Assembly (NCBI RefSeq): GCF_009389715.1
Contig: NC_052394.1
Span: 22,570,899 to 22,634,898, forward strand
From: Phoenix dactylifera
Lineage: Eukaryota > Streptophyta > Magnoliopsida > Arecales > Arecaceae
Reading direction: 5' to 3'
Length of the DNA: 64,000 bases
The stretch's first letter is position 1; the number at the start of each line of letters is the position of its first letter. Positions 1 to 59,534 of the stretch are shown one piece after another. The notes under the pieces were generated by a model. The model did not search any database. It was not told the DNA's origin and saw nothing but the letters and a program-made list of their open reading frames with translations. A program made the position numbers and the translations under genes.

Positions 1-45
1 AATATATATATACATAATATATATATATATATACATAATTAATAT

Positions 46-1121
46 TGTTGGGGGAAAAAATAGACCGCCCCACACGTACAATTAAAGCGCGCCAAATCTG
101 ACAACAAGCCTGAGCTCACCATGCAGGCCGAGCTCATCCATGCAGGCCGAGCTCAGAAGATCAAGCCGAGCTCAGAAGACTGAGTCGAGCTCATCATCCA
201 GGCTGCCGAGCTCAGAAGACTAAGGCCAGAAGGCCGAGCACAAAAGCTGTCGAGCCCATCCAGGCCGAGCTCATAGGCCGAGCCGAGCTCAGAAGGCTGC
301 CGAGCTCATCCAGGCTGCCGAGCTCAGAAGACTAAGGCCAGAAGGCCGAGCACAGCAGGCCGAGCCGAGCTCAGAAGGCCGAGCCGAGCTCATGCAAGCC
401 GAGCTCATCCATGTTGCCGAGCACAGAAGGCCGAACCAGAAGGCTGCCGAGCACAGAAGGCTGCCGAGCTCAGAAGGCCGAGCACAGCAGGCCGAGCACA
501 GAAGGCCGAGCACAGCAGGCCGAGACCAAAAGGCTGAGCTGACCTCAGAAGGCCGACCTCATCGTCTATATGCTGCGGCCATCCCCTGCAGCAGCCTTAC
601 CGCACCATGTTTTACTTGCCGGCCACGCCACGACATATTAATTAGGAACCATACTCTGCTACGACTGTCAACGCCTCATCATTCCCAAGAATGTACTGCA
701 CTGCGTGCCTCAAGCAAACTCTGGCTGCACGCCATCTCCCATGATGGGAACGGGCCATCCACGGCAACTCATTACTTCCACGCCCACGTCCAATCGTGAC
801 GGTAACCCATTAATTCGTCCAGTCACATCACAGGTAACCCTGCCACTCTCCTTATAAAAGGGGAGCTTCTCCCTCTAAAAAGAGGAGGCTTCTTCCTCCC
901 AAGGGAGGCTTCGGATTTGGAAATACAATCCCTCTCCTTCTCCAAAATTAAGCCCCCCTCTGACTTAAGCATCGGAGGGCCGGCGCCGGAAACCCGGCCA
1001 CCGGCTTTTTGCAAGCCCCCCACGGAGGACGCCGCTCGCCGACGGATCGCCGCCCGCCAATGTTCGCCGGAGCTCCTCCTCCTCGGTTCGCGGCCGCCCC
1101 CGGGTCCAATTTCCAGCAACA
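46..1121 (+). repeat. 5' LTR
   Basis: This is the left LTR, about 1,076 bp, with the terminal TGTTG...CAACA inverted ends. Roughly positions 100-540 are a degenerate GCCGAGCTCA-type minisatellite. The CTCCTTATAAAAGG sequence near 848-862 is a good TATA box for the element's own promoter. Short open frames here are minisatellite translations and not genes. Confidence 0.9.
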
Positions 1122-1122
1122 G

Positions 1123-1139
1123 TTGGCGCTAGAGGAAGG
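1123..1139 (+). other. Primer-binding-site-like sequence
   Basis: The sequence TTGGCGCTAGAGGAAGG begins two bases after the 5' LTR, the expected place for tRNA priming. The TGGCGC start is common in plant Ty3/gypsy-type elements. I have not assigned the tRNA. Confidence 0.55.
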
Positions 1140-1148
1140 GCCCGAGTT

Positions 1149-1460
1149 GTGGCCATGAAACTAAGGAGCAGAGGAGTCTCTGATACCTCCCGGCATCATG
1201 CTCCAAGCCCCGGGCGCTCAGTCCAGAATCCATCACCAAGACCTCCGGCAGATCAAGCTCCACAAGTCCAACCCGAGCACTTCGACGCGCTAGTGCAGCA
1301 AGTCCAAGCGCTAGCCATTGCAGCCCAAAGCCTGCAACAAGTGGAGGCTCCTCCTGTGCCGCCTCCACGGGTTCATGTTAAGCAGAGGAAGAAACTTTCT
1401 CCCGAGCCATCTCGAATCAGGCATGGCTCCCGCTACAACGACGTACGTGGGGGCAACTAG
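1149..1460 (+). other. Gag-like leader frame in the LTR element (fossil)
   Basis: A frame of about 100 residues lies just after the priming site. It is rich in Pro, Gln and Arg, with a short helical VQQVQALA-type stretch like the start of plant Ty3/gypsy gag proteins. It is far too short for a full gag. It is a remnant or a short leader peptide of a non-autonomous element. Confidence 0.35.
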
Positions 1461-1639
1461 TGAGAAGTAGTAGCCCAAGTCTCACATCAACGAGTTGGAG
1501 GGAAAGAGAAATAAAAGCTGAGGTCTGAAGAAGGAGAGTTATGTACTCCCTCCTCATGGGTGTAAGTCCTTACGACGGCGCTCGTGACGTTGCTCTCCTT
1601 CAGAGCGTCGTCATCACCGAAGCCCCGGCCGTGCACAGA

Positions 1640-1920
1640 GGGCTGCCGAGCTCATCCAGGCCAAGCTCATGCAGGCCGAGCCGAGCTCAGAAGGCCGAGC
1701 TTGTCATCCACATGCTGCAGCCACGACCTGCAGCAGTCTCATCCAGGCCGAGCTCATGCAGGCCGAGCCGAGCTCAGAAGTCCGAGCTCGTCATCCACAT
1801 GCTGCAGCCACGACCTGCAGCAGTCTCATCCAGGCCGAGCTCATGCAGGCCGAGCTCAGAAGGCCGAGACCAGAAGGCTGCTGAGCTCATAAGCCCGAGC
1901 TCAGAAGCCCGAGCGCAGAA
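1640..1920 (+). repeat. Interior GCCGAGCTCA minisatellite with about 85-bp units
   Basis: The same GCCGAGCTC-rich motif that fills much of each LTR reappears inside the element. Here it lies within units that also contain CATCCACATGCTGCAGCC. At least two long units (about 1671-1755 and 1755-1837) and a partial third are visible. Confidence 0.75.
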
Positions 1921-2202
1921 CACCCCTCCCAGACAATCGAGCCAAAGAAGGCCGGTGCTGAGCCAAGTCCTGAAAGACTTCGAAGCTCGAGAGGCATCAA
2001 AATATCTCCAAAAGGTACAGGATGCCACTTTGGCTTCAAATAATTTCAATATTTCATCTATTTTCAGGTCGGAGAATCCAAAAAACGACCTACGGGTATC
2101 CCTATCTCCAACGTCGCCCCGCTCCGAATAAGGGCGCACGATCGCCAACGGAATCCATCTCCTGTATGTATCTCCAATGATGCCCCGACTAAGTTCGGGA
2201 TG

Positions 2203-2690
2203 CCCCGAGTGTCGACAATGCGTGCCCAGACCCCTCGACACTTCGGGAAGACGGGGTAGTACCTTCGCGGCCCTCCGTGGCGCTCAACACCAACAACGGG
2301 ATAGTACCTTCGCGGCCCCCTGTAGCGCCTCCTCGACTAAGGTCGAGATGCCCCGAGTGTCGACAGTGCGTGCCCAGACCCCTCGACACTTCGGAAAGAC
2401 GGGGTAGTACCTTCGCGGCCCTCCGTGGCGCTCAACACCAACAACGGGGTAGTACCTTCGCGGCCCCCCGTAGCGCCTCCTCGACTAAGGTCGAGATGCC
2501 CCGAGTGTCGACAGTGCGTGCCCAGACCCCTCGACACTTCGGGAAGACGGGGTAGTACCTTCGCGGCCCTCCGTGGCGCTCAACACCAACAACGGGGTAG
2601 TACCTTCGCGGCCCCCCGTAGCGCCTCCTCGACTAAGGTCGAGATGCCCCGACGAGTCGACAGTGAGCCCGAGCTCCCTCGACCTCGGGA
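2203..2690 (+). repeat. 148-bp tandem repeat, three units plus a partial fourth
   Basis: The motif CCCCGAGTGTCGACA recurs at 2203, 2351 and 2499, and a diverged start lies at 2647. The spacing is exactly 148 bp. Each unit carries two copies of GTAGTACCTTCGCGGCC, so the array also has a sub-repeat. It lies in the interior of the LTR element. Confidence 0.9.
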
Positions 2691-3191
2691 TGACGGGGTA
2701 GTACCTTCGCGGCCCCCCAAAACGTTCGTGATTGACAACAAAGCACCCCCAAAATGTTCGTGGATAACAACAAAACAACGCCCACACAGATCTCCAATGG
2801 CAACTATTTCTCCTATTGTGCCGGCGTCCCTAGAAAGCGGACCCCGAACAAAAGAGCATCCACAAAAGTTAGTCGAGGAGCAAAGCTGCCGACCTCGGCG
2901 TGAGACGCTCGACTCCGACAGTAAAAAAAGGGCTCACGGCCTGAATTTTTACCTTGTCAGCTGGGAGAAGTGCGACGCGGAAGATCTGTCGCGTCGTCTC
3001 GACGTTCTCGAGAGCTGAGTCGACCACAAGCCAAAGAAGGCTGCTGAGTCGACCTGAAGCACTTGACTCCAACTGCATGAGAGGTACACCCTACTTGGCA
3101 CGCACATCTCCATATACATTTGGCTATATTACAGGATGATCGACGACTGGACTACTTTCTTCGTCCGAGCCAAAAAGCAGCTCGAACTCGG

Positions 3192-3205
3192 AAGTCGGGG
3201 GGTAG
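3192..3205 (+). other. Polypurine-tract-like sequence before the 3' LTR
   Basis: The sequence AAGTCGGGGGGTAG directly abuts the 3' LTR, which is the position and purine bias expected of a plus-strand primer. It is short and interrupted. Confidence 0.5.
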
Positions 3206-4234
3206 TGTTGGGGGAAAAAATAGACCGCCCCACACGTACAATTAAAGCGCGCCAAATCTGACAACAAGCCTGAGCTCACCATGCAGGCCGAGCTCATCCA
3301 TGCAGGCCGAGCTCAGAAGATCGAGCCGAGCTCAGAAGACTGAGTCGAGCTCATCATCCAGGCTGCCGAGCTCAGAAGACTAAGGCCAGAAGGCCGAGCA
3401 CAAAAGCTGTCGAGCCCATCCAGGCCGAGCTCATAGGCCGAGCCGAGCTCAGAAGGCTGCCGAGCTCATCCAGGCTGCCGAGCTCAGAAGACTAAGGCCA
3501 GAAGGCCGAGCACAGCAGGCCGAGCCGAGCTCATCCATGTTGCCGAGCACAGAAGGCCGAACCAGAAGGCTGCCGAGCACAGAAGGCTGCCGAGCTCAGA
3601 AGGCCGAGCACAGAAGGCCGAGCACAGCAGGCCGAGACCAAAAGGCTGAGCTGACCTCAGAAGGCCGACCTCGTCGTCTATATGCTGCGGCCATCCCCTG
3701 CAGCAGCCTTACCGCACCATGTTTTACTTGCCGGCCACGCCACGACATATTAATTAGGAACCATACTCTGCTACGACTGTCAACGCCTCATCATTCCCAA
3801 GAATGTACTGCACTGCGCGTCTCAAGCAAACTCTGGCTGCACGCCATCTCCCATGATGGGAACGGGCCATCCACGGCAACTCATTACTTCCACGCCCATG
3901 TCCAATCGTGACGGTAACCCATTAATTCGTCCAGTCACATCACAGGTAACCCTGCCACTCTCCTTATAAAAGGGGAGCTTCTCCCTCTAAAAAGAGGGGG
4001 CTTCTTCCTCCCAAGGGAGGCTTCGGATTTGGAAATACAATCCCTCTCCTTCTCCAAAATTAAGCCCCCCTCTGACTTAAGCATCGGAGGGCCGGCGCCG
4101 GAAACCCCGGCCACCGGCTTTTTGCAGGCCCCCCACGGAGGACGCCGCTCGCCGACGGATCGCCGCCCGCCAATGTTCGCCGGAGCTCCTCCTCCTCGGT
4201 TCGCGGCCGCCCCCGGGTCCAATTTCCAGCAACA
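3206..4234 (+). repeat. 3' LTR
   Basis: This is the right LTR, about 1,029 bp. It is nearly identical to the left one but shorter by about 47 bp, because the GCCGAG minisatellite lost or gained units. The AATAT target duplication follows it immediately. Confidence 0.9.
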
Positions 4235-5125: not shown

Positions 5126-8100
5126 ATGGCGAAAGCCGAAGGTCCGGCGATCGGGATCGATCTCGGAACGACCTACTCGTGCGTCGGCGTGTGGCAGCAC
5201 GATAGGGTGGAGATCATCGCCAATGACCAAGGGAACCGCACCACCCCGTCCTACGTCGCGTTCACTGACACCGAGAGGCTTATCGGTGATGCCGCCAAGA
5301 ACCAGGTCGCTATGAACCCCACCAACACCGTCTTCGGTAAGTTCAGATCGCCTACTCTGTTTGCTAGGCTATGCTTTTTACGTAGTTACTAGCATTTGTA
5401 GTGCTACGTTGCGATAAAATTCATGGAAATTCTATAAGTTTGAGATCTTGATGAAATTGTTCACGCGTCTTTGATATGCTTTCTGAATTTGTCGTATTTT
5501 TGCTGGTCATTGTGGAGGATTTTTTTTTTCCCCAAAAAAAGATCAAATTTTTGGTCACTTGATTGATTTGTGGGTTGGTTTGGGAAGTTAATTTTTGATT
5601 TATTCTATTTTTAGCTTTTATGCTCCGAGTTATTTAAAACCTGCCAGCTTGTAGATATTCGATATAATTTTTCTCATGAATGGAAAATTCTGCATTTTTT
5701 TTCTAGATTTTGTTATAGGGATCGGAGCAAATTATGTGTATGTTTAGTTTTGTTTGGAAAGATCCAACGAAAAGTTGCAACATGATCCGTGTTATTCTTA
5801 GGGTTATGTAAAAACTGTTACGAATACTTTTTTACAAATTTTGAAACTTGTTTATTTTTTCTAATTGACGTGCTTTGCATCAGGAACCTGTTTTCCATCT
5901 ATATCTTGGAGATCTGTAACATATTTAATGTATATATGTTTATAAATATAGGAAACTATCAACTGTGTCAAAAATTTGTGTTTTTCTTTGGAAATACGGG
6001 ATTTATAAAAATATTATGGAAGATATTTATTGCACAACTTAAGCTATGCATGTGGAGCTAGATTTATAATGTACATAGTTAATGTATATATCTTTATAAA
6101 TATTCAAAGCTACCAACTGTGTATATATCTTTAGATATGCTGGCTTTATTAACGAATTAGGGAAGGCATTTATTTTACAATTTAAGCAATTTATATAGTT
6201 GTAAATCGGAGAAGTGTAAAAGGCTTGAATTCTAAGCCGAATTGACTTGATCTGGATCAAGTTTAGTCTTCTTGATTTTAAGTTCAAAATTGTATTCACT
6301 GATAAGATTGTGATTATGAAAGCCTTTCTGAATCATTCTATGAACTATTATTATCCTCACTTTAAATTCTACTGGAAATTCTTAGGATTTATTGAGGACA
6401 GAGCTACTTGTCATGACTTGTGTTTATTTTATCTTTTTGGAACACTTTGCATCTTGCTTTTTTTTTCCCGTTTACCCCTGACGATCTTTGTTCTGTTTGT
6501 GGTTATGGTCGTGCACAGATGCGAAGAGATTGATTGGCAGACGTTTCAGCGACCCCTCTGTCCAGAATGATATGAAGCTATGGCCCTTCAAGGTCATCCC
6601 AGGCCCTGGTGACAAGCCCATGATTGTGGTACAGTACAAGTGCGAGGAGAAGCAGTTCTCTGCAGAGGAGATTTCATCCATGGTCCTCATGAAGATGAAG
6701 GAGATTGCTGAAGCCTACCTTGGTTCTACTATTAAGAACGCAGTTGTCACAGTCCCTGCCTACTTCAACGACTCCCAGCGTCAGGCCACCAAAGATGCTG
6801 GCGTCATTTCTGGCCTCAATGTCATGCGAATTATCAATGAACCCACCGCTGCTGCCATTGCCTACGGTCTTGACAAGAAGGCTGGCAGCTCTGGCGAGAA
6901 GAATGTTCTTATCTTTGACCTTGGTGGTGGCACCTTTGATGTCTCTCTTCTCACCATTGAAGAGGGCATCTTCGAGGTGAAGGCGACTGCTGGCGACACT
7001 CACCTTGGTGGTGAGGACTTTGACAACCGGATGGTGAACCACTTTGTTCAGGAGTTCAAGAGGAAGAACAAGAAAGACATCAGTGGCAACCCCAGGGCCC
7101 TGAGGAGATTGAGGACAGCTTGTGAGAGAGCAAAGAGGACTCTCTCCTCCACTGCCCAGACCACCATTGAGATCGATTCCCTGTATGAGGGTATTGATTT
7201 CTACACCACCATCACCCGAGCCAGATTTGAGGAGCTCAACATGGACCTATTTAGAAAGTGCATGGAGCCCGTGGAGAAGTGCCTGAGAGATGCTAAGATG
7301 GACAAGAGCGGCGTCCATGATGTTGTCCTTGTTGGTGGGTCGACCAGGATTCCCAAGGTGCAACAGCTTCTTCAGGACTTCTTCAATGGGAAGGAGCTCT
7401 GCAAGAGCATCAACCCCGACGAGGCTGTTGCCTATGGTGCTGCTGTCCAAGCTGCCATCTTGAGCGGGGAGGGCAATGAGAGGGTCCAGGACTTGCTGCT
7501 GCTGGATGTTACCCCTCTCTCTCTTGGTTTGGAGACTGCAGGAGGTGTTATGACTGTCTTGATTCCAAGGAACACTACCATTCCAACCAAGAAGGAACAG
7601 GTCTTCTCCACCTATTCCGACAACCAGCCTGGTGTCCTGATTCAGGTTTATGAGGGTGAGAGAACCCGGACAAGGGACAACAACCTTCTTGGTAAATTCG
7701 AGCTATCCGGCATTCCTCCTGCTCCACGAGGTGTGCCTCAGATCAATGTTTGCTTTGATATAGATGCCAATGGCATCCTGAATGTGTCCGCTGAGGACAA
7801 GACCACCGGGCAGAAGAACAAGATCACGATCACCAATGACAAGGGCAGGTTGAGCAAGGAGGAGATCGAGAAGATGGTCCAAGAGGCCGAGAAGTACAAG
7901 GCAGAGGATGAGGAGCACAAAAAGAAGGTGGAGGCGAAGAATGCTTTGGAGAACTATGCCTACAACATGAGAAACACTATCAGAGATGAGAAGATTGCCG
8001 CCAAGTTGCCACAGGCTGACAAGAAGAAAATTGAGGATGCCATTGAGCAGGCCATCAATTGGCTGGATGGCAACCAGCTCGCTGAGGCAGATGAGTTTGA

Positions 8101-8254
8101 AGACAAAATGAAGGAGCTGGAGAGCATCTGCAACCCAATCATTGCCAAGATGTACCAGGGCGCAGGTGCAGGGATGGCTGGTGGCATGGACGAGGACATT
8201 CCGGCAGCTGGTGGTAGCAGTGGTGCAGGGCCCAAGATTGAGGAAGTTGATTAA
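5126..8254 (+). CDS. HSP70: Cytosolic heat shock cognate 70 kDa protein, copy 1 (exons 5126-5336, 6519-8254)
   Basis: This is an ATP-dependent chaperone of the cytosol and nucleus that binds exposed hydrophobic peptide stretches and works with J-domain proteins and nucleotide-exchange factors. The two exons join to 648 residues, the usual length for plant HSC70. The intron (5337-6518) splits the codon for Asp71 in phase 1 with GTAAGT and GCACAG borders, the classic plant HSP70 intron site. Visible signatures are IDLGTTYS (11-18), [12 protein letters not shown] (about 202-213), [10 protein letters not shown] (about 340-349) and the C-terminal GPKIEEVD, whose EEVD binds TPR co-chaperones and marks the cytosolic form. 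The start is fixed by alignment with copy 2 (55527-59534). An upstream heat-shock element predicts heat induction. Cys in YKCEEK replaces Gly of copy 2. The assignment is secure; constitutive versus inducible status is not decidable from sequence. Confidence 0.97.
5337..6518 (+). other. Intron of HSP70 copy 1
   Basis: This is an AT-rich intron of 1,182 bp with no recognisable insertion. It has short internally similar stretches ending in AACTGTGT near 5950 and 6115. The copy 2 intron at the same codon is longer (2,061 bp) and shows no obvious similarity by eye. Confidence 0.9.
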
Positions 8255-10611: not shown

Positions 10612-12120
10612 TCAGGTCAACATAAGATTATTAGCTCCAAGATGAGGAGGGCGCAAGCATACACGAACTTCGTGTTCTTCGGGCCCAACACGATGTTTAG
10701 GAACCATTATTTCTAGCACGGCGCCAGTCTCATCATAGTATGCTTCTAACTTAGCATCTTCTGGGATTCGAGTGGCAAGCGGTATCTCTCTTATGAATTC
10801 CCCTGGTGGGCAATGCTCAGGAGAAGGGTCGGTCAGCTTGAATGTTCTATCATGCCTCTTTACATATGGCATCCGAGCAGTACTGACACAGAGTATCTTC
10901 ACTATCCCATGAGTAAGACTATTCCTCCAAGAAACCTTCACACTCTGTTGATCAGCAAAAGGCAGGCTAACCATTATCAAGTAACCTCGTTCATCCTCAT
11001 AAATCGTCTTTGCAGCAGTTACCGGCCCATAGATGTGCCTCATCACACCGCTAAAGTCATTCAACCATGATGGCCCGACCGGGTGTATGTCCATGTCTTG
11101 GGCTCTCTCCGAATAAGAATTCAGGGGCAAGCCGCAATCCTCATCCATCGCATGTCGAAAGAGATCCTTCCTGCGCTTGCTGCAAACTGGAGAAAGGTCC
11201 ATCCCATCACCATTGGAATGATTAGAATGCGATAACAAGTTCAAACCTGATCCATTAAGCAATTTCTTTGGGTGGGGATGCAAAATGCCCTTCGAATGAG
11301 GAGGAGGCCTTTCGAGCTCAAATTCAGAGTTGGGAAGATTCCTCCATGACCCGAAATCACTGGCTTCCAGCGGGATCGAGAAATTAAGCTCCCTGCCAGT
11401 GAGCTCCATCCACTTCTTGCGGTCCACCTCGGTGACAGCCGCCAAGTTGGGTGACCTCACCACTTCAATACCATGCACACACTGAGGGTTCGACAGCCCA
11501 CGGTACTGCTTGCGCTGCATCCGGTGGGATCGGACGAAGCCCTTGTCGGCGCTGAATGGGAATTGGGGCTCGCCATGGCGGGAGTGCCCGTTCATGTAGC
11601 TCCTCAGCTGCATCTTGCCCAGCGCGTTCTCCGGCCTCTCCTTGAAGACCCACATGTACATGTTCTCCATGTCGTGCTGGACCAAGAACACATCAAACTG
11701 GAGTTCGGACTTGTCGAAGCCTAAGACGCCATTCCCATCTCGGGTTGTCTTGGCCTTGGATTTCTCGGAGAGTGCTGGCTTGAAATAGAAGGTGAAGAAG
11801 AACCATGCGCCCCAGATGCTGTCGCCTCTCTTGACACATTTGCGGGCTGCGCCGACCCTGGGGAGGTGCAGGAGAGTCGCAGGATCATAGACCTGAGAGC
11901 CAAGACTGACGTCCAAGATATCGTTCCAATATTGCTGGGGAGGGGAGCGCTCGGCGGAGAGTGGGAGGTTGATGTCGGGCGGCCGCTGGATCATCAGCTC
12001 GCGGTCGGACAAGTCCTCATGGGAGGAGAGCAAGGCCGGGCCGCCGGAGGGATCCATAGAAAGAAGAGTGGATGGGTGGTGGTTCTCCATGGACAGAGAG
12101 GTGAGGAGATCTTCTCCCAT
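10612..12120 (-). CDS. HSP20-like alpha-crystallin-domain protein, IDM2/IDM3 type
   Basis: This is a single-exon frame of up to 502 residues. The C-terminal 105 residues or so (about 370-475) form an alpha-crystallin fold. Its end, PEDAK-LEAYYDETGAVLEIMVPK, is the typical last strands of a plant small heat-shock domain. The N-terminal 360 residues are not found in small HSPs and include a W-rich segment (SIWGAWFFFTFYF) and a basic CSKRRKDLF stretch that could be a nuclear signal. This long architecture matches the plant family that includes Arabidopsis IDM2 and IDM3, which join the IDM1 histone acetyltransferase complex and protect loci from DNA hypermethylation. The function here is by family resemblance from memory. 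The start may be Met11 (12090) instead of Met1. It lies tail-to-tail with HSP70 copy 1. It is not itself a heat-shock chaperone of the 15-20 kDa class. Confidence 0.8.
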   Translation of the reverse strand: MGEDLLTSLSMENHHPSTLLSMDPSGGPALLSSHEDLSDRELMIQRPPDINLPLSAERSPPQQYWNDILDVSLGSQVYDPATLLHLPRVGAARKCVKRGDSIWGAWFFFTFYFKPALSEKSKAKTTRDGNGVLGFDKSELQFDVFLVQHDMENMYMWVFKERPENALGKMQLRSYMNGHSRHGEPQFPFSADKGFVRSHRMQRKQYRGLSNPQCVHGIEVVRSPNLAAVTEVDRKKWMELTGRELNFSIPLEASDFGSWRNLPNSEFELERPPPHSKGILHPHPKKLLNGSGLNLLSHSNHSNGDGMDLSPVCSKRRKDLFRHAMDEDCGLPLNSYSERAQDMDIHPVGPSWLNDFSGVMRHIYGPVTAAKTIYEDERGYLIMVSLPFADQQSVKVSWRNSLTHGIVKILCVSTARMPYVKRHDRTFKLTDPSPEHCPPGEFIREIPLATRIPEDAKLEAYYDETGAVLEIMVPKHRVGPEEHEVRVCLRPPHLGANNLMLT

Positions 12121-17702: not shown

Positions 17703-18230
17703 ATGGCATCTCCAACACCCTCACCTCAACCCAAATCCGATACCCCGGATTCCCACTACTTTGCACTCACCATCGCCGTGGTTGCCATCATGATTATAGT
17801 GTCAAACGTGATAGCCTTTGCATGCTGTTCCCCATGTCGCTTTGCTCTAGCTCTTCGGAGGTTCTTCCGGCGACCTGAGGTCTCCACCAGCGAAACCAAC
17901 AGTAATGCCAAAACTGCCAGGGTTATTCCGGCACTGAAGTATCACAATGAAGAGGAGGACTTGGAGAATGCATCCGATAGCGGGTGCTCGGTGTGCCTAT
18001 CGCCTTTCATGGATGGAGAATATATCCGGCAGCTGCCGCCATGCAACCACACCTTCCACGCAGCTTGTATAGATATGTGGCTCTACTCTCACTCCAACTG
18101 CCCCCTTTGCCGTGCCAGCGTTCCAGTACGGCCTCCTCGCCGCCCGACTGCCGCCGCTGCGGTGGATTCCGGGCCGCAACATCCAACAGATTTCGGCTTG
18201 ATGGCCGGCGTCGTCGGTGTTCTGGTGTGA
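17703..18230 (+). CDS. ATL-family RING-H2 E3 ubiquitin-protein ligase
   Basis: This is an intronless gene for 175 residues, typical of the plant ATL family. It has a hydrophobic transmembrane segment at about 20-41 near the N terminus, then a basic stretch ([12 protein letters not shown]), then a RING-H2 finger. The zinc ligands are Cys95, Cys98, Cys114, His116, His119, Cys122, Cys133 and Cys136, with spacing C-x2-C-x15-C-x-H-x2-H-x2-C-x10-C-x2-C. The conserved Trp126 contacts the E2 enzyme. The GLD motif between membrane segment and RING is represented only by a weak variant (VIPALKYH, 74-81). The protein should sit in a membrane and transfer ubiquitin to unknown targets. Many ATLs respond to stress or elicitors. 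It converges with VPS2.1, whose stop lies 480 bp away. I cannot assign a numbered ATL orthologue. Confidence 0.93.
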
Positions 18231-18708: not shown

Positions 18709-19789
18709 TTACATTTTTCGTAGATTATCTAATCTCGCCTGTAGTTCGCTGTCTATCCCACCGTCTTCAGTCCCAGCTGTTTCAGCTTGAGCAACCCTGT
18801 CAGCTGCCGCTGGTTGAGCCACCGCAGATGTCGGTGCTTTGACAAGCTGTGTGCGAATTACAAAAACCAATGGATTTGAGGTATATTATATATGAATCAA
18901 GCATAACAATATCCTTTGGTTGAAGGAAGAAAGAGGTAACAGATATGTAAGCATATACCTCTGCATTAATGTCGATACCAATTTCATCAAGGACCTGGTT
19001 CACAAGATCTTCTGTTTCTTCTTCTTCCTCGTCACCCTCTAAGGCATCATCAATAGCATCTCCCATCGCCTCGCTTACCATTTCCATCCTCTCATTTTGC
19101 CGCTCAAATTCTTGCATTATCTTCTGCAAGCCTGGTAGGTTCATCTGCCTGTTCATCTGTCCCATTGCCTTAGTAACACCCTTCATAGCCTCACCCATAG
19201 CTTGGGTTGATTTCAATGTCTGCAAGAATCACAAAATAGTTGAAAGATGACATTGTAGACTGGTGAGATGAACTGATTCAAAGTCAATTCCCGCTCTAAT
19301 AAAAAACTTTCACATATAACATGAATCTGCAGTTTTAACCTAATTATAACGGATTAGAGAACCTCACACACCACCCCGAACATTTAATTCTTCAAGGAAT
19401 TGGCAAAAGGATGGTCCTTGACGATGCATTAAAGATATAATGCTAATATTCAACCGATAGGGTGCTTGCACATTCAGTGTCAGACTTCTTTATTAAGTTT
19501 CCTGTAACTTCCACACGTATTTTATCATCCTCTCCAGCAGCTCTGAAGTAGGAGTGGAAACCATGAAACTACATTAGTTAATACAACTTGGACATGACCT
19601 TATTTTTCTAACATATGTGATCAAGGATCTTACAGTTTTCCAAGAGGGAAACATGGTTAAAACACTTAAAGGTCACCATCCCCCCCCAACCCTCCCCGCT
19701 CCCCCACCCTTCCGGATTCTCTCTAATGAGCACTTATTTCCATTAGAAAGCCAGGAAATCTGTAAACCCAGCCAACTTCGTCCATGCAC

Positions 19790-28274: not shown

Positions 28275-30042
28275 TTAGTATGGCTTCCTAGGAGCACGAA
28301 AGAAATTGAAGGGTGGTTGGTTCTCACCACCCACCTCGTCTTCTCCATCGTCCAAGCTCTCGGACTCTGCTGAGGCTGAGGTTAGAGTGCTGACAGATCT
28401 CTCCTCCAAGATGCCAGTGGGGTGCAACGGGAACAGCTGCAGTGTCTCATGGGAGATGGGGCCGTTCATGTTGGCAAGACCTGCAGTGCTGTGGCTCGTT
28501 CCAGTGGCATGATGATCATAGTGGTAGGCTGGATGAGGGGCGTTGCTGAATGCCTCTGGGATTATCTCCCGGCTCACTTGAAACTCTGGTCTTGGATTGA
28601 TGTTCACAGCTCCGGGTAAGAACATGTTAGGGAACTGGGGTTGGTAGAAGCCAACACCACCAACCTGTGGTACCTGAAAGTAATATGGGCTGCGAACAAC
28701 TGCATGAAAGATGGGCCACGAACCCATCCAATGATGAGAGAAAGCTTTATCAGAAAAAAGGATGAGAGAGAAAGAGAGAGATAATGCAGTTCTACATGTA
28801 ACTTTAAGACGGTTCTGAATAATGAGACAACAATACAAAAGGTGATTAGTATTACCAAATGTTTTTATTCTAGTGTATAAAAGAGATAAAAACAAGAAGT
28901 AATAACTTGTGTTGAAAGTTAACATAAGAGCTACTAGAGATGGAAGGAGGAGATCTGTTGTTAGCTGAGAATATACACAAAAAAGGAAGGTGAAGAGACT
29001 GAGGGAGAAGTCTGATGGACAGCTGAGAATGGGATTGTTGTCCAGTGTGATATGCAAATAAAAAGTAACTGGAAAGGGAAGAAGACAGATGGCGGGGCGT
29101 TTTTTTTTTTTGATGGAAAGAGGACGGATGGCTAGCTAAAACAACATAAGCAAAAGCATGAGAATGGTACAAGACAGAAAAAAGGTGATCAAAAGTGGTC
29201 AAGCAGGAGAAGCAACAACCCCAAAACAAGAAAGAAATATCATTCACAAAGAAGCAAACATAAAGGTAAAAGTAAATTCCGTGAAATTATGCAAGGAGAA
29301 AAAAATGTCCATTAGGCACAATCTCTTACGCATGCAAGCAAGTAAAAGATCGTTAACTATTTACAGCTTAAACGAAAAAAAGAATGCATTAAATGCTACA
29401 CAGTATTGTAGATAAGGTTGGAAATATAACTAATAGATGAGTAGAACCATGAGGGCAACTTGCATGATGAATAAATACTGTTAAAACATATTATAGTTTT
29501 CTGTGAAGGGGAAAAATTAAACAAGAATCAAGTAAACCCTTTCTTAACCAGATAAAAGGAAAGGATGGATCGATCGTCTTTTTTTGTTGTTGATGATGAT
29601 GATAATGGGAGGCAAGGATGGATCATCTTAAACACTTGAGAAATAACGAGCCAACTTACAGTAAAAGAATAGACACAAGACATAAAACAGACAGTCCAAG
29701 CGGCTCACCATTGGTGCAAGTTGGTGGAGGAGGTACTGGTGAGAGGACAGGTGTCGGCGGAGCTTGGTGGAAGAGTCTGCTATAGTAGGCGAAGCTCTCC
29801 TGCTTCTGCTTCTGCCTCTGGCGAGCCTTGTGGTTTTGGAACCAGTAGAAGACGTTCTTCCCCTCGATGCTCCCATACTCCCTAAGCTTGCCAGTTATCT
29901 GCTGGATCTGCTCAGCGCTCGGCGTCCGGATCCCCTGCCGGTAGAGTCCTTCCAGTATCGCAATCTGCTCCTTGGTCGGGTTCCACCGAGAACCCGACGG
30001 CGACGGCGACGAGGCCGATGCCGACCCCTTGCATTCCTCCAT
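28275..30042 (-). CDS. WOX2: WUSCHEL-related homeobox protein WOX2 (exons 29709-30042, 28275-28699)
   Basis: This transcription factor controls apical embryo patterning and meristem formation. Two exons give 252 residues; Arabidopsis WOX2 is similar in length. The WOX homeodomain lies at about 17-81 ([20 protein letters not shown], then helix 3 [16 protein letters not shown] at 62-76). [15 protein letters not shown] follows; this resembles WOX2 and not WUS, WOX4 or WOX5. The second exon joins at a Val codon to give SPYYFQ, as in Arabidopsis SPYYLQ. The canonical WUS box TLQLFPL is at about 197-203, and a C-terminal ENQPPFNFF block is also WOX2-like. The intron (28700-29708) has GT-AG borders. 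A TATA box lies 57-65 bp upstream of the ATG. The WOX2 assignment rests on remembered family sequences; a WOX1/WOX3 assignment is much less likely. Confidence 0.93.
28700..29708 (-). other. WOX2 intron
   Basis: 1,009 bp, phase 1, donor GTGAGC and acceptor ATGCAG. Another in-frame AG just downstream (after CTTTCAG, 28678) would shift the frame, so 28699 is chosen. No insertion is recognised. Confidence 0.85.
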
Positions 30043-40818: not shown

Positions 40819-41784
40819 AGGGCTCGTTTGGTTCGCGGAAAAAGAAGAGGAAAAAGTGTGGTCAACGAGAAAGTAATGAAATGCCTCTTGTTTGGTTGGA
40901 ATTTTCAAAGGAGAAAGATGGAAAAGTTGTATTTCCATAGGAATATGGGGCTCGTTTGGTTCGCGGGAAGTATTTTCCCTCCTAGGAATATGATTCCTGG
41001 GAATCAGATTCCTAGGAAGAGGATACCTAGGAAAGTACTTTTGACATGTTTGGTTAACCATGGGAAAGTGACTAATTTCCAAAGTGCTTATGTTTGGTTG
41101 ACCATCCACTTTCCTAGGAAAGTTATGTATAATTCCTATTATGTCCTTAATAAAAATTAGGTCTTTAATGCCTCTTTAATGCTTCTTTAATGCTGAAGGG
41201 TCTTTTTGGAAAAAATAAAAAAGGAGTGATTCCCACCTCATGGGAAAGTAACTTTCCCATGTTTCTCATGGGAAAGACTTTCCCATGAAATGTGGGAATC
41301 ATATTCCCATGGGAATACCACTTTCCCATCTCTCTCCTTTGAAAACTCCAACCAAACAAGAGGCATTTCATTACTTTCCCGTTGACCACACTTTCCCCCC
41401 TCGTTTTCCTGCGAACCAAACGAGCCCATGATTCCCACATTTTATGGGAAAGTCTTTCCCATGAAAAACATGGGAAAGTTACTTTCCCATGAGGTGGGAA
41501 TCACTTTATTTTTATTTTTTTTCCAAAAATGCCCTTCAACATTAAAGAAGCATTAAAGAGGCATTAAAGACCTAATTTTTATTAAGGGCATAATAGAAAT
41601 TATACATAACTTTCTTAAGAAAGTGGATGGCCAACCAAACATAAGCACTTTGAAAATTTGTCACTTTCTCATGGTCAACCAAACATGCCAAAAGTACTTT
41701 TCTAAGCATTCTCTTCCTAGGAATTTGTTTTCCAGGAGTCATATTCTTAAGAGGGAAAATGCTTCTCGTGAACCAAACGAGCCC
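40819..41784 (+). mobile_element. MITE, outer copy, split by a self-family insertion
   Basis: The element begins GGGCTCGTTTGGTTCG and ends with its inverted partner CGAACCAAACGAGCCC in slightly diverged form. It is flanked by the 3-bp direct repeat CAA (40816-40818 and 41785-41787). Removing the inner copy and one ATG leaves 483 bp. The 3-bp target duplication and GGG-start ends fit Tourist-type (PIF/Harbinger) MITEs. The family call is tentative because typical targets are TAA/TTA. No coding capacity. Confidence 0.8.
40948..41427 (-). mobile_element. MITE, inner copy, inverted and nested in the outer copy
   Basis: 480 bp with the same GGGCTCGTTTGGTTCG ends, flanked by ATG on both sides (40945-40947 and 41428-41430). 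Its reverse complement aligns with the outer element along the whole length: 41291-41427 inverted matches 40819-40945, and 40948-41290 inverted matches 41428-41784. Identity is roughly 85-90 percent by eye. It is therefore a second copy of the same family inserted in the opposite direction. Confidence 0.85.
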
Positions 41785-41787
41785 CAA

Positions 41788-53852: not shown

Positions 53853-54030
53853 CTTCCTAATGGTGCTCCTCATGCTGTATCCTTTCCCTCATCTCCATCT
53901 TCTTCTTGTGCTCCTCATCCATTGCTTTGTACTTCTCAGCAACTTGAACCATCTTCTGGATTTCTTCCTTGCTCAGCCTGCCATTATCATTGGTAATAGT
54001 TATCATCTTCTTCTACCCAGTGGTCTTATC
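53853..54030 (-). pseudogene. HSP70 C-terminal fragment, inverted
   Basis: The minus strand reads a diverged copy of the HSP70 substrate-domain to lid region: DKTTG, then [35 protein letters not shown] and MRSTIRK, compared with [29 protein letters not shown] and MRNTIRD in the intact genes. The Gln after DKTTG has become a stop, and some bases are lost before MRSTIRK. Only about 180 bp remain, with no intron position included, so retrocopy and duplication cannot be told apart. It lies 1.5 kb upstream of HSP70 copy 2 in the opposite direction. Confidence 0.85.
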
Positions 54031-54174
54031 ATGCATGCATGCTTGGGTACGTGCACATATTATGTATTGGGTTGGGCCTCCTAGAGCTATTGGGCTCACG
54101 AATCATGGCCTTAAGTTTGGCACAATTTTCAGTTAGTCTAGATTGGCTTATACTCTACAGTCTACATTGACCAT

Positions 54175-55526: not shown

Positions 55527-58500
55527 ATGGCCGGCAAGGGTGAAGGTCCGGCGATCGGGATCGATCTCGGGACGACCTACTCGTGCGTCGGCGTGTGGCA
55601 GCACGACCGGGTGGAGATCATCGCCAACGACCAGGGGAACCGCACCACCCCCTCCTACGTCGCTTTCACCGACACCGAGCGGCTCATCGGCGATGCCGCC
55701 AAGAATCAGGTCGCCATGAACCCCACCAACACCGTCTTCGGTGAGTCTCTTGCCCTCGGATGTCCCTTTTTCTAGATCTGTTGTTGATGCATTAAGTAGA
55801 TCTCTATTTATTCCTGTGGGTCTTTCTTGTATGGATCTTAAACCTATTAGATCTGTGATCTCGTGCGTCTTATTGGGTTGATTTGAATCGCGTTGATAGA
55901 TCTGATTCTTTTGGTGGCCCTGAATATCTTTTCCCCTTAAATAACGGAAACAATTTAGATATTTTTCTCTATTAATGCTATCTGCTCGCTTAATAGGCGT
56001 TTTTTTATTTGTTCCCAACTGCTTGTTCTGGATGTTTTTAATAAATAATTCTGGCGGTTTCTATTTTTTAGATCTACGTCAAACATGGCGGCAAGATTTG
56101 TCATTGAAGTCTGCTTCATTATTTTTTCTGCGATCCTTATTATCATCTAGCTGTGACTCGGAATTTATGAATCATATTTTGGACATATCACGTTTGATTG
56201 TTAGAGAGAGTTTAAATTGTGAAGACAAAAAAAGGAAGCAGAATGGAAATTTAGTTATTTTATAATAACCGAGAACTTCCTTTGAAGCAAAAATAATTGC
56301 TCGTGTCTGTTTATGTTCTTGGGTAGGAAGCAAAAACATAGAAACTTATTTGTACCACATCGCTCACCTATGTTATTTTAAATTTTCATTGGAGAGTAAA
56401 TAATGTGGAGTATAAGCCTCATCTTTTTTGAAATTTATGATGCCCTAGGCTGTTTAACTTACAGGAAGGTCTTCATTTTAGAAGTTGGAACGTGTTTCTT
56501 TCAGCTTTACTAGGCTTGGCTTATGACTTTTAAGCGGGTGTGCGATGAAAAGAAATGTTAGACATCAAGTTGATGAATTTGAACCTGTTATTTACATTTT
56601 TTAAATGCTCATAGTCTACCTTGAGTACGTTTTATGCTTCATAGGTGTTTTTACTGGTTTCTTTGTGCTCGGTTCTTTGGATTGGTTGGAGAAAAATTTA
56701 AGGGAATGAGGACCATAGTTGGTTTTCTATGGTACTACTGTCTGTGCTAGCATTGCACATCCAGCTTTTATAGAAACTTTGATATGATTACATTTTTTGT
56801 GATTTCTTAAACTATATTGTGTCTTTCCCAGAAATAGTTATGATTTTTTTTTTGCTTAAACAATAGCTGCCTATGTGATTTATATGTGCGCATGCCTGCA
56901 TATTGTGAATGTTTTCATGATACTCAGAGCAGATCCAGAGCATTGGGTAACAGGGCTTAGGGTGGATGGTTGCAATAATATATGATCATTGTGTATCTAC
57001 TTACTTGATGCATAGTGTGGTGGATTCACCCAAATACTACCTGTTTTGGTTTCTGTACTCTCCTTCTTCATTCAATACTGGAGGAAGACAAATCTAAGTG
57101 GAGTACCTTCTGTATTGGACTTGTTGGTCGAGTTGCACTTTTTTTTTTTTTTTTGGGGGGGGGGGGGGAGGTAGGGGGGGATGGTCCCAAGTGTTCAAAT
57201 CACATGTAGCAAAACATACACTTTGATTTCTGATCTTTTTTTGTCTGAGTGGAAGGATTTTCCGTGAAGTTTTTTGATCTTGATAATGACAAACCCAATG
57301 GAAGAAAGTCTTGTGACACACAAGATATGTCATAGTTTATTAAGTATCAATAAGCTGATTTGGGGTCATTTGAATGTGCGTGAAGACTAAGATTTAGTAT
57401 TGCTGGATATTTTAGATGTTGTTGAAGAAGCATAACACATGTTTGAAAAACTGGCGTGCCTTTGTTAGGATTCCATCTGACAAGATATTAGCAGAGCCAT
57501 TGATAGATAGGGGGCTTTCAGTTGTGCTATTTCTTGATTATGGAACTTTGCTCTACATTGCGCATATTGTTTTCACTGGGGTTAGTTTTGCATCATCTTT
57601 TATTCTTTAGCAGATCCTTAAACTCTAGAAATTGGTCAACCGATTCTTAGTCTTCTACCTTTGTTATGATATGCTCCCATAATGCTGTTTTTTTTCTTTT
57701 GCACTTGATGTATGAATAATTCTTTTTTGGTTCTTTCTACATACTTCATGCGGTATCTTTTTGGGCACAAGCTCCTGGTCTTACCGTTCTTTGCTTTACA
57801 GATGCCAAGCGACTTATCGGCCGGCGGTTCTCTGATGCTTCTGTCCAGAGTGATATCAAGCTCTGGCCCTTCAAGGTTATTGCTGGCCCTGGGGATAAGC
57901 CCATGATTGGTGTCCAGTACAAGGGTGAGGATAAGCAGTTCTCTGCAGAGGAGGTTTCATCCATGGTCCTCATGAAGATGAAGGAGATTGCTGAAGCCTA
58001 CCTTGGTTCTACTATTAAGAACGCAGTTGTCACAGTCCCTGCCTACTTCAACGACTCCCAGCGTCAGGCCACCAAAGATGCTGGTGTCATTTCTGGCCTC
58101 AATGTCATGCGAATTATCAATGAACCCACGGCTGCCGCTATTGCATATGGTCTTGATAAGAAGGCTAGCAGTGTTGGCGAGAAGAATGTTCTCATCTTTG
58201 ACCTTGGTGGAGGCACCTTTGATGTCTCTCTCCTTACCATTGAAGAGGGTATCTTTGAGGTGAAGGCCACTGCTGGGGACACCCATCTTGGCGGAGAAGA
58301 CTTTGACAACCGCTTGGTGAACCACTTCGTCCAAGAGTTTAAGAGGAAACACAAGAAGGACATCACTGGAAATCCGAGGGCGCTTAGGAGGCTGAGGACA
58401 TCTTGCGAGAGGGCAAAGAGGACCCTTTCATCTACTGCCCAAACCACAATCGAGATTGATTCCCTGTACGAGGGCATTGATTTCTACTCCACCATCACCC

Positions 58501-59534
58501 GTGCCAGGTTTGAAGAGCTTAACATGGATCTCTTCAGGAAGTGTATGGAGCCTGTAGAGAAGTGCCTGAGGGATTCCAAGATGGATAAGAGTAGTGTCCA
58601 TGAAGTTGTCCTCGTTGGTGGGTCCACCAGAATTCCCAGGGTGCAGCAGTTGTTGCAGGATTTCTTCAACGGGAAGGAGCTGTGCAAGAACATCAACCCT
58701 GACGAGGCAGTGGCTTACGGGGCTGCTGTCCAGGCTGCCATTTTGAGTGGCGAGGGAAATGAGAAGGTGCAGGATCTTCTTCTGTTGGATGTCACCCCCC
58801 TGTCCCTTGGACTGGAGACTGCAGGAGGTGTCATGACTGTCCTAATTCCAAGGAACACAACCATTCCCACCAAGAAGGAGCAGGTCTTCTCAACCTACTC
58901 CGACAACCAGCCTGGTGTCTTGATTCAAGTTTATGAAGGCGAGAGGGCCAGGACCAGGGACAACAACCTCCTTGGTAAGTTTGAGCTCTCAGGCATTCCT
59001 CCTGCACCAAGGGGCGTTCCTCAGATTACAGTTTGCTTCGACATCGATGCAAATGGTATCCTTAATGTGTCTGCTGAGGACAAGACCACCGGACAAAAGA
59101 ACAAGATCACCATCACCAATGACAAGGGTAGGTTGAGCAAGGAGGAGATTGAGAAGATGGTCCAAGATGCAGAGAAGTACAAGTCCGAGGACGAGGAGCA
59201 CAAGAAGAAGGTGGAGGCTAAGAATGCCTTGGAAAATTATGCCTACAACATGAGGAACACCATCAAGGACGATAAGATTTCATCCAAGCTGGCTGCTGAT
59301 GACAAGAAGAAGATCGAGGATGCCATTGAGCAGGCTATCCAGTGGCTGGAAGGAAACCAGTTGGCGGAGGCTGATGAATTCGAGGACAAGATGAAGGAGC
59401 TGGAAGGCATCTGCAACCCCATCATTGCCAAGATGTATCAGGGTGCGGGTCCCGACATGGCTGATGGAATGAATGATGATGCTCCCGCTGCTGGCGGCAG
59501 TGGGTCTGGCCCCAAGATTGAGGAGGTCGATTAA
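55527..59534 (+). CDS. HSP70: Cytosolic heat shock cognate 70 kDa protein, copy 2 (exons 55527-55740, 57802-59534)
   Basis: A second full HSP70 of 648 residues, starting [19 protein letters not shown]. The intron (55741-57801, 2,061 bp, GTGAGT/TTACAG) splits the codon for Asp72 in phase 1, the same site as in copy 1. The protein has the two phosphate-binding motifs (IDLGTTYS and [10 protein letters not shown]), [10 protein letters not shown], the lid helices and the cytosolic EEVD tail. The linker before EEVD is short and Gly/Pro/Ala-rich ([17 protein letters not shown]). It is closely similar to copy 1, with most DNA differences silent, so the two are paralogues doing much the same job of ATP-driven folding. 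The heat-shock element and strong TATA box suggest high and heat-boosted expression. Residues about 116-180 are encoded by DNA almost identical to copy 1. Confidence 0.97.
55741..57801 (+). other. Intron of HSP70 copy 2
   Basis: AT-rich intron with a T16G14 homopolymer junction at 57139-57168, followed by further short G runs. No mobile element was recognised. Confidence 0.9.

Follow-up and report, generated by a model that had tools for sequence, protein, structure and literature searches.

Two HSP70 genes of the date palm, Phoenix dactylifera, lying on the same strand about 51 kb apart, have very probably undergone recent ectopic gene conversion, in one direction or the other. The pair is otherwise old, with a synonymous divergence (dS) of about 1.1, and a tract of near-identity within exon 2 is bounded on both sides by diverged sequence. 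Conversion is the best reading because the tract alters the gene tree, because the pair is otherwise old, and because constraint on silent sites fails as an explanation. In the proposed event, 130–203 bp of exon 2 (approximately codons 116–180, in the nucleotide-binding domain) would have been copied, with copy 1 the most likely source and copy 2 the target, and the transferred segment would have replaced the resident copy 2 sequence. This could have occurred if exon 2 of copy 2 suffered a double-strand break that was repaired on the copy 1 template, the simplest such repair route being synthesis-dependent strand annealing. A preliminary description of this DNA had proposed recent interlocus conversion, and the proposal is supported by the tree switch, by a dS of 1.13 elsewhere in exon 2 and by the failure of constraint.

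The HSP70 pair and its setting

The window is the whole stretch of 64,000 nucleotides that was analysed (C3:22570899-22634898), and the assembly searched comprises 773 Mb in 2391 contigs. The window contains the following HSP70 features:

5126..5336, plus strand: HSP70 copy 1 (W1), exon 1, with a GT..AG join to exon 2 giving a 648-aa HSP70
6519..8254, plus strand: HSP70 copy 1, exon 2, with a PF00012 match
6650..6846, plus strand: putative conversion tract in copy 1, the probable donor, with 2 of 197 mismatches against copy 2
53860..54093, minus strand: decayed HSP70 fragment (tblastn), approximately residues 470–553, outside the tract region
55527..55740, plus strand: HSP70 copy 2 (W2), exon 1 of a two-exon gene model
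57802..59534, plus strand: HSP70 copy 2, exon 2, with a PF00012 match
57933..58129, plus strand: putative conversion tract in copy 2, the probable recipient, with a switch of tree position and 24 of 24 diagnostic sites

Each copy encodes 648 residues, matches HSP70 over its full length and ends in EEVD, a mark of cytosolic HSP70. A single intron per gene interrupts the Asp72 codon (numbered as in copy 2), a position typical for plant HSC70 genes. Judged by these sequence features, copies 1 and 2 are assigned as cytosolic HSP70s of the plant HSC70 type. Their proteins are identical in 604 of 649 alignment columns, and the top solved-structure match, among the best 60 of 114, is chain 7n6g_6K, Heat shock protein 70A. 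Codon numbers given here are alignment numbers, which equal copy 2 residue numbers; those of copy 1 are one lower.

The surroundings of the pair hold several further features. The decayed HSP70 fragment lies inverted between both genes, 1.4 kb ahead of copy 2; it has 52% amino acid identity to copy 1 by tblastn, contains an internal stop and reaches 83% DNA identity over 138 bp. Direct repeats of about 1.08 kb at 43–1121 and 3203–4234 are 94.7% identical, and the 2.1 kb between them carries 87-bp and 148-bp tandem repeats. This 43–4234 segment resembles a short LTR-type element and ends about 0.9 kb before copy 1. At 40820–41786, inverted repeats with lengths of about 128 and 359 bp, approximately 90% identical and arranged in the order a-b-a'-b', suggest a putative foldback or MITE-like element. 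The interval between the HSP70 genes also includes a RING-finger ORF (17703–18230), a Snf7-domain ORF (18800–19225) and a homeodomain ORF (29656–30042). A 502-aa ORF lacking a Pfam match occupies 10612–12120 on the minus strand, and it may resemble the HSP20-like gene beside the Arabidopsis HSC70 tandem pair.

The near-identical tract and the gene tree

The segments at 6650–6846 and 57933–58129 differ at 2 of 197 positions (6671 and 6802), and identity is unbroken over the 130 bp from 6672 to 6801, exactly as first described. Divergence just before the tract had been put at about one-quarter and was measured as 29 differences in the 131 bases of the 5' flank (6519–6649; 22%) and 18–20% in its final 30–50 bases. 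The accompanying figure of 12 percent after the tract holds for the first 100 bases (12/100) and solely there, because 190 of 1254 positions (15%) differ up to 8100. On the 5' side the tract is limited by codon 113 (6641–6643), where copy 2 carries the base of its own clade, and on the 3' side by a mismatch at 6847, in codon 181. The minimum extent is therefore 6672–6801 and the maximum 6644–6846 (130–203 bp), with the introns outside it. At codon 118 (6658), copy 2 shares with copy 1 a base that is absent from six other intron-bearing genes, which places the probable start of the tract ahead of 6671.

Synonymous distance across exon 2 is not uniform. Nei-Gojobori dS is 0.023 in tract codons 116–180 (1 of 44.2 synonymous sites) versus 1.132 in exon 2 without the tract; by segment it is 0.43 in exon 1, 1.65 in codons 72–115 and 1.10 in codons 181–649. 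Silent-codon differences number 1 of 64 in codons 110–180 versus 194 of 584 across the full CDS. The same codons, 110–180, form the best low-divergence segment by a scan statistic, with a log-likelihood ratio of 23.1 against a shuffle maximum of 14.0 (n=2000); once they are taken out, the best leftover segment is equalled by 884 of 2000 shuffles and is not significant. The identical run of 50 silent codons is reached by none of 20,000 within-amino-acid shuffles, nor by any of 60,000 confined to exon 2. A separate set of 20,000 shuffles contained a run of 52 as its longest, and the observed length was thus attained there at least once.

Same-genome paralogues served as the comparison in place of orthologues from related species. 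A PF00012 search of the assembly gives at least 80 matches, and the set analysed comprises nine genes that have a full exon 2 and an EEVD end, namely W1, W2, C12a, C12b, C13a, C13b, C3La, C3Lb and C7; members of other HSP70 subfamilies were excluded, as was L192, a broken copy on C12. The intronless C7 was used as the outgroup, and the other eight genes form four neighbour pairs, with C3La and C3Lb at 1.40 Mb. Exon 1 of C13b lies about 14 kb ahead of its exon 2, and their linkage is assumed.

The tract changes the position of copy 2 in this family. In exon 2 without the tract, copy 1 groups with C12a (ultrafast bootstrap 99) and copy 2 with the C13b and C3Lb pair (99). A grouping of copies 1 and 2 is rejected by the AU test for the rest of exon 2 (7e-6), for its upstream part (0.0056) and for its downstream part (2e-11). 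Placing copy 2 inside the copy-1 clade is also rejected for the rest of exon 2 (2e-4), and for the short upstream part alone this rejection fails (p 0.104). Within the tract, which is short, copies 1 and 2 group together and then with C12a, at ultrafast bootstraps limited to 90 and 91, and the placement of copy 2 with C13b and C3Lb is rejected at a moderate p of 0.032. Individual sites show the same switch. Where copy 1 and C12a share a base that differs from the one shared by C13b and C3Lb (diagnostic sites), copy 2 agrees with the copy-1 clade at 24 of 24 tract sites, against 6 of 18 upstream and 41 of 102 downstream (47 of 120 in the flanks). It has a third base at 19 of the 120 flank sites, without which the Fisher test gives 2e-7. 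Copy 1 and C12a themselves differ at 14 tract sites, and copy 2 matches copy 1 at 13 of these. Three tract bases common to copies 1 and 2 occur in none of the other six genes with an intron, and C7 has one of them; outside the tract, 5 sites in 1536 show this pattern. The copy-2-clade base found in copy 2 at codon 166 runs counter to this switch and requires recurrent mutation or a patchy tract with an unconverted strand.

Direction, age and competing explanations

Copy 1 is the likely donor and copy 2 the recipient, and this direction is well supported. The exchange may have been non-reciprocal: the copy 1 tract stays next to C12a, and silent codons give a likelihood ratio of 23.7 for copy 1 as the donor. 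Transfer in the opposite sense, a sub-case of conversion in which copy 2 would have converted copy 1, is unlikely; the AU test fails to reject it (p 0.116), though it is 13.2 lnL worse. If copy 2 were the donor, the silent divergence between the tract and C12a should be 0.39, the value of copy 2 elsewhere, whereas the observed 14 of 61 does not fit that value (P 0.007) and does fit copy 1 (0.27 elsewhere). The affinity of copy 1, counted as C12a-like to C13b/C3Lb-like sites, also moves somewhat, from 120:64 outside to 24:3 in the tract (p 0.014), but that of copy 2 moves more, from 65:105 to 24:4 (p 2.5e-6).

The V123 residue of copy 2 is its sole occurrence among the nine genes and is for this reason probably a mutation that followed conversion. 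Tract dS amounts to about 4% (interval 0.1–21%) of the dS of 0.596 between copy 1 and C12a. At rates of 6.5e-9 or 2.6e-9 substitutions per site per year, the conversion would be about 1.8 or 4.4 million years old, with an overall interval of 0.04–24 million years.

An assembly or polishing artefact, in which short reads of one copy overwrote the other over about 200 bp, is quite unlikely. The size of the tract is near short-read length and a single assembly is the sole source of both sequences, but flanking reads should be easily placed because the flanks differ by 15–20%. The tract also contains two differences (6671 and 6802), one of which yields a residue absent from the other eight genes, and none of the remaining 35 pairs among the nine genes has a comparable segment. 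A near-identical second copy 1, such as a haplotig, is not among the matches listed in assembly searches with the tract and with 7500–8254.

Under conversion from copy 1 to copy 2, the event would have given copy 2 the copy-1-clade residues Ser119 and Ile143 in its nucleotide-binding domain; the corresponding residues of both C13b and C3Lb are Ala and Val. That these residues form an adaptive domain patch kept by selection is very doubtful.

Constraint at the DNA level, by which codon usage, RNA structure or an antisense ORF would hold silent sites in HSP70, is extremely improbable. The protein segment is strongly conserved, and antisense ORFs cover it in both copies (6674–7042 and 57957–58352), but these ORFs extend beyond the tract into diverged sequence. 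The tract RNA folds no better than shuffles (z -0.10), and no Rfam match occurs in the window at gathering cut-offs. The commonest codon is no more frequent in the tract (31 of 61 positions) than outside it, against 313 of 565 (copy 1) and 330 of 567 (copy 2) outside. A low-divergence island shared by unrelated plant HSP70 genes had been named as the sign of codon constraint, and such an island is missing from the other 35 of the 36 same-genome pairs and from 3876 bacterial or viral pairs. In the other 35 same-genome pairs, tract silent differences are 0.12–0.72 and inside/outside ratios 0.56–1.46 (lowest in C13b-C3Lb), against a ratio of 0.04 for copies 1 and 2.

The bacterial and viral controls derive from 173 loci, 167 with a usable reading frame, two of the source searches giving the best 80 of more matches; after identical and N-containing sequences were dropped, 158 controls were aligned with the two window genes. 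The 3876 pairs, which are non-independent and include no plant, are those with a silent difference of 0.15–0.6 outside the region. None has a ratio below 0.3 (minimum 0.34, median 1.01), against 0.05 for copies 1 and 2 on this scale (1/58 inside versus 192/525 outside). Pooling 69 disjoint pairs gives 1541/3794 (0.406) inside and 10563/26125 (0.404) outside. For 99 pairs selected more narrowly, with silent difference 0.25–0.45 and protein identity of at least 85%, the longest identical silent run is 35 versus 50 in the palm pair, and the smallest sliding-window ratio anywhere is 0.19 versus 0.05. The nearest controls are L068-L072, with a ratio of 0.34, and L107-L111, with a run of 49 at lower overall divergence and outside the 99-pair set. 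GC-biased conversion was also considered and rejected, as third-position GC in the tract (0.58–0.59) is similar to that of its exon 2 neighbours (0.57–0.63).

A third HSP70 locus that gave the tract to both copies is hardly credible: the family is large, with its at least 80 PF00012 matches, but among the 12 matches listed in a tract search of the assembly the best after copies 1 (100%) and 2 (99%) is C12a at 93%, and those beyond it reach at most 84%.

Exon 1 was examined as a second tract and is unsupported, because copy 2 and C12b are closer, the tree is unresolved (supports 29–65) and the 7 diagnostic sites are mixed, 4 of them showing the copy-1 base in copy 2, 2 the copy-2 base and 1 neither. 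Copies 1 and 2 are 93% identical there, with a silent difference below that in the non-tract part of exon 2 (Fisher p 0.013); they differ at 13 of 63 silent codons, where the eight intron-bearing genes range over 0.13–0.40. Third-position GC of exon 1 is 0.70–0.89, and in the bacterial and viral pairs this region is not slow (506/1457). Copy 2 and C12b are unusually close in exon 1, at 8 of 62 silent codons (L187 4786-4574 against window 55527-55740), but not in the remainder of exon 2 once the tract is set aside (193/455). An older exchange may have affected exon 1. A scan of the 36 family pairs found no comparable tract, the next log-likelihood ratio being 11.6 over a segment spanning most of the gene. 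C3La and C7 share a 15-codon run, a length reached in none of 200 shuffles.

Comparison with known systems

Among the titles and abstract openings listed, including those for date palm HSP70, none concerns the pair of copies 1 and 2, and a literature query with six 17-base words from the tract returned solely unrelated animal papers. Mosaic HSP70 genes of this kind call for caution in dating and tree building. Conversion across flanks diverged by about 15%, over 51 kb, also bears on how much template divergence is tolerated. The palm case leaves current understanding unchanged.

HSP70 paralogues are already known to undergo conversion, and the palm pair is a new, well-resolved plant case. According to the excerpt of PMC5865164, mammalian HSPA1A and HSPA1B are homogenised by conversion, and the same is stated for flies and nematodes; mammalian Hsp70 is also referred to in the excerpt of PMC3924838. 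The palm genes resemble HSPA1A/HSPA1B in being neighbouring HSP70 paralogues with silent-site identity, shaped by conversion together with purifying selection; however, the mammalian genes are similar along the gene within species, whereas the palm pair is old and diverged and shares one short tract (PMC5865164, excerpt). In the available part of PMC6707343, conversion between homoeologous HSP70 genes of Brassica napus is taken by the authors from a published dataset, and Arabidopsis AtHsp70-1/2 are termed a tandem pair. Both the Brassica napus and the palm case involve plant HSP70 genes with a named donor, but the former crosses allopolyploid subgenomes and the latter joins neighbours on one chromosome (PMC6707343, same part). 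Most estimates of mean interlocus tract length run from 50 to several hundred bp in the portion of PMC3924818 consulted; these were obtained in experiments with yeast and rodents and from genes involved in human disease, and the palm tract of 130–203 bp, in a plant, falls within that general range.
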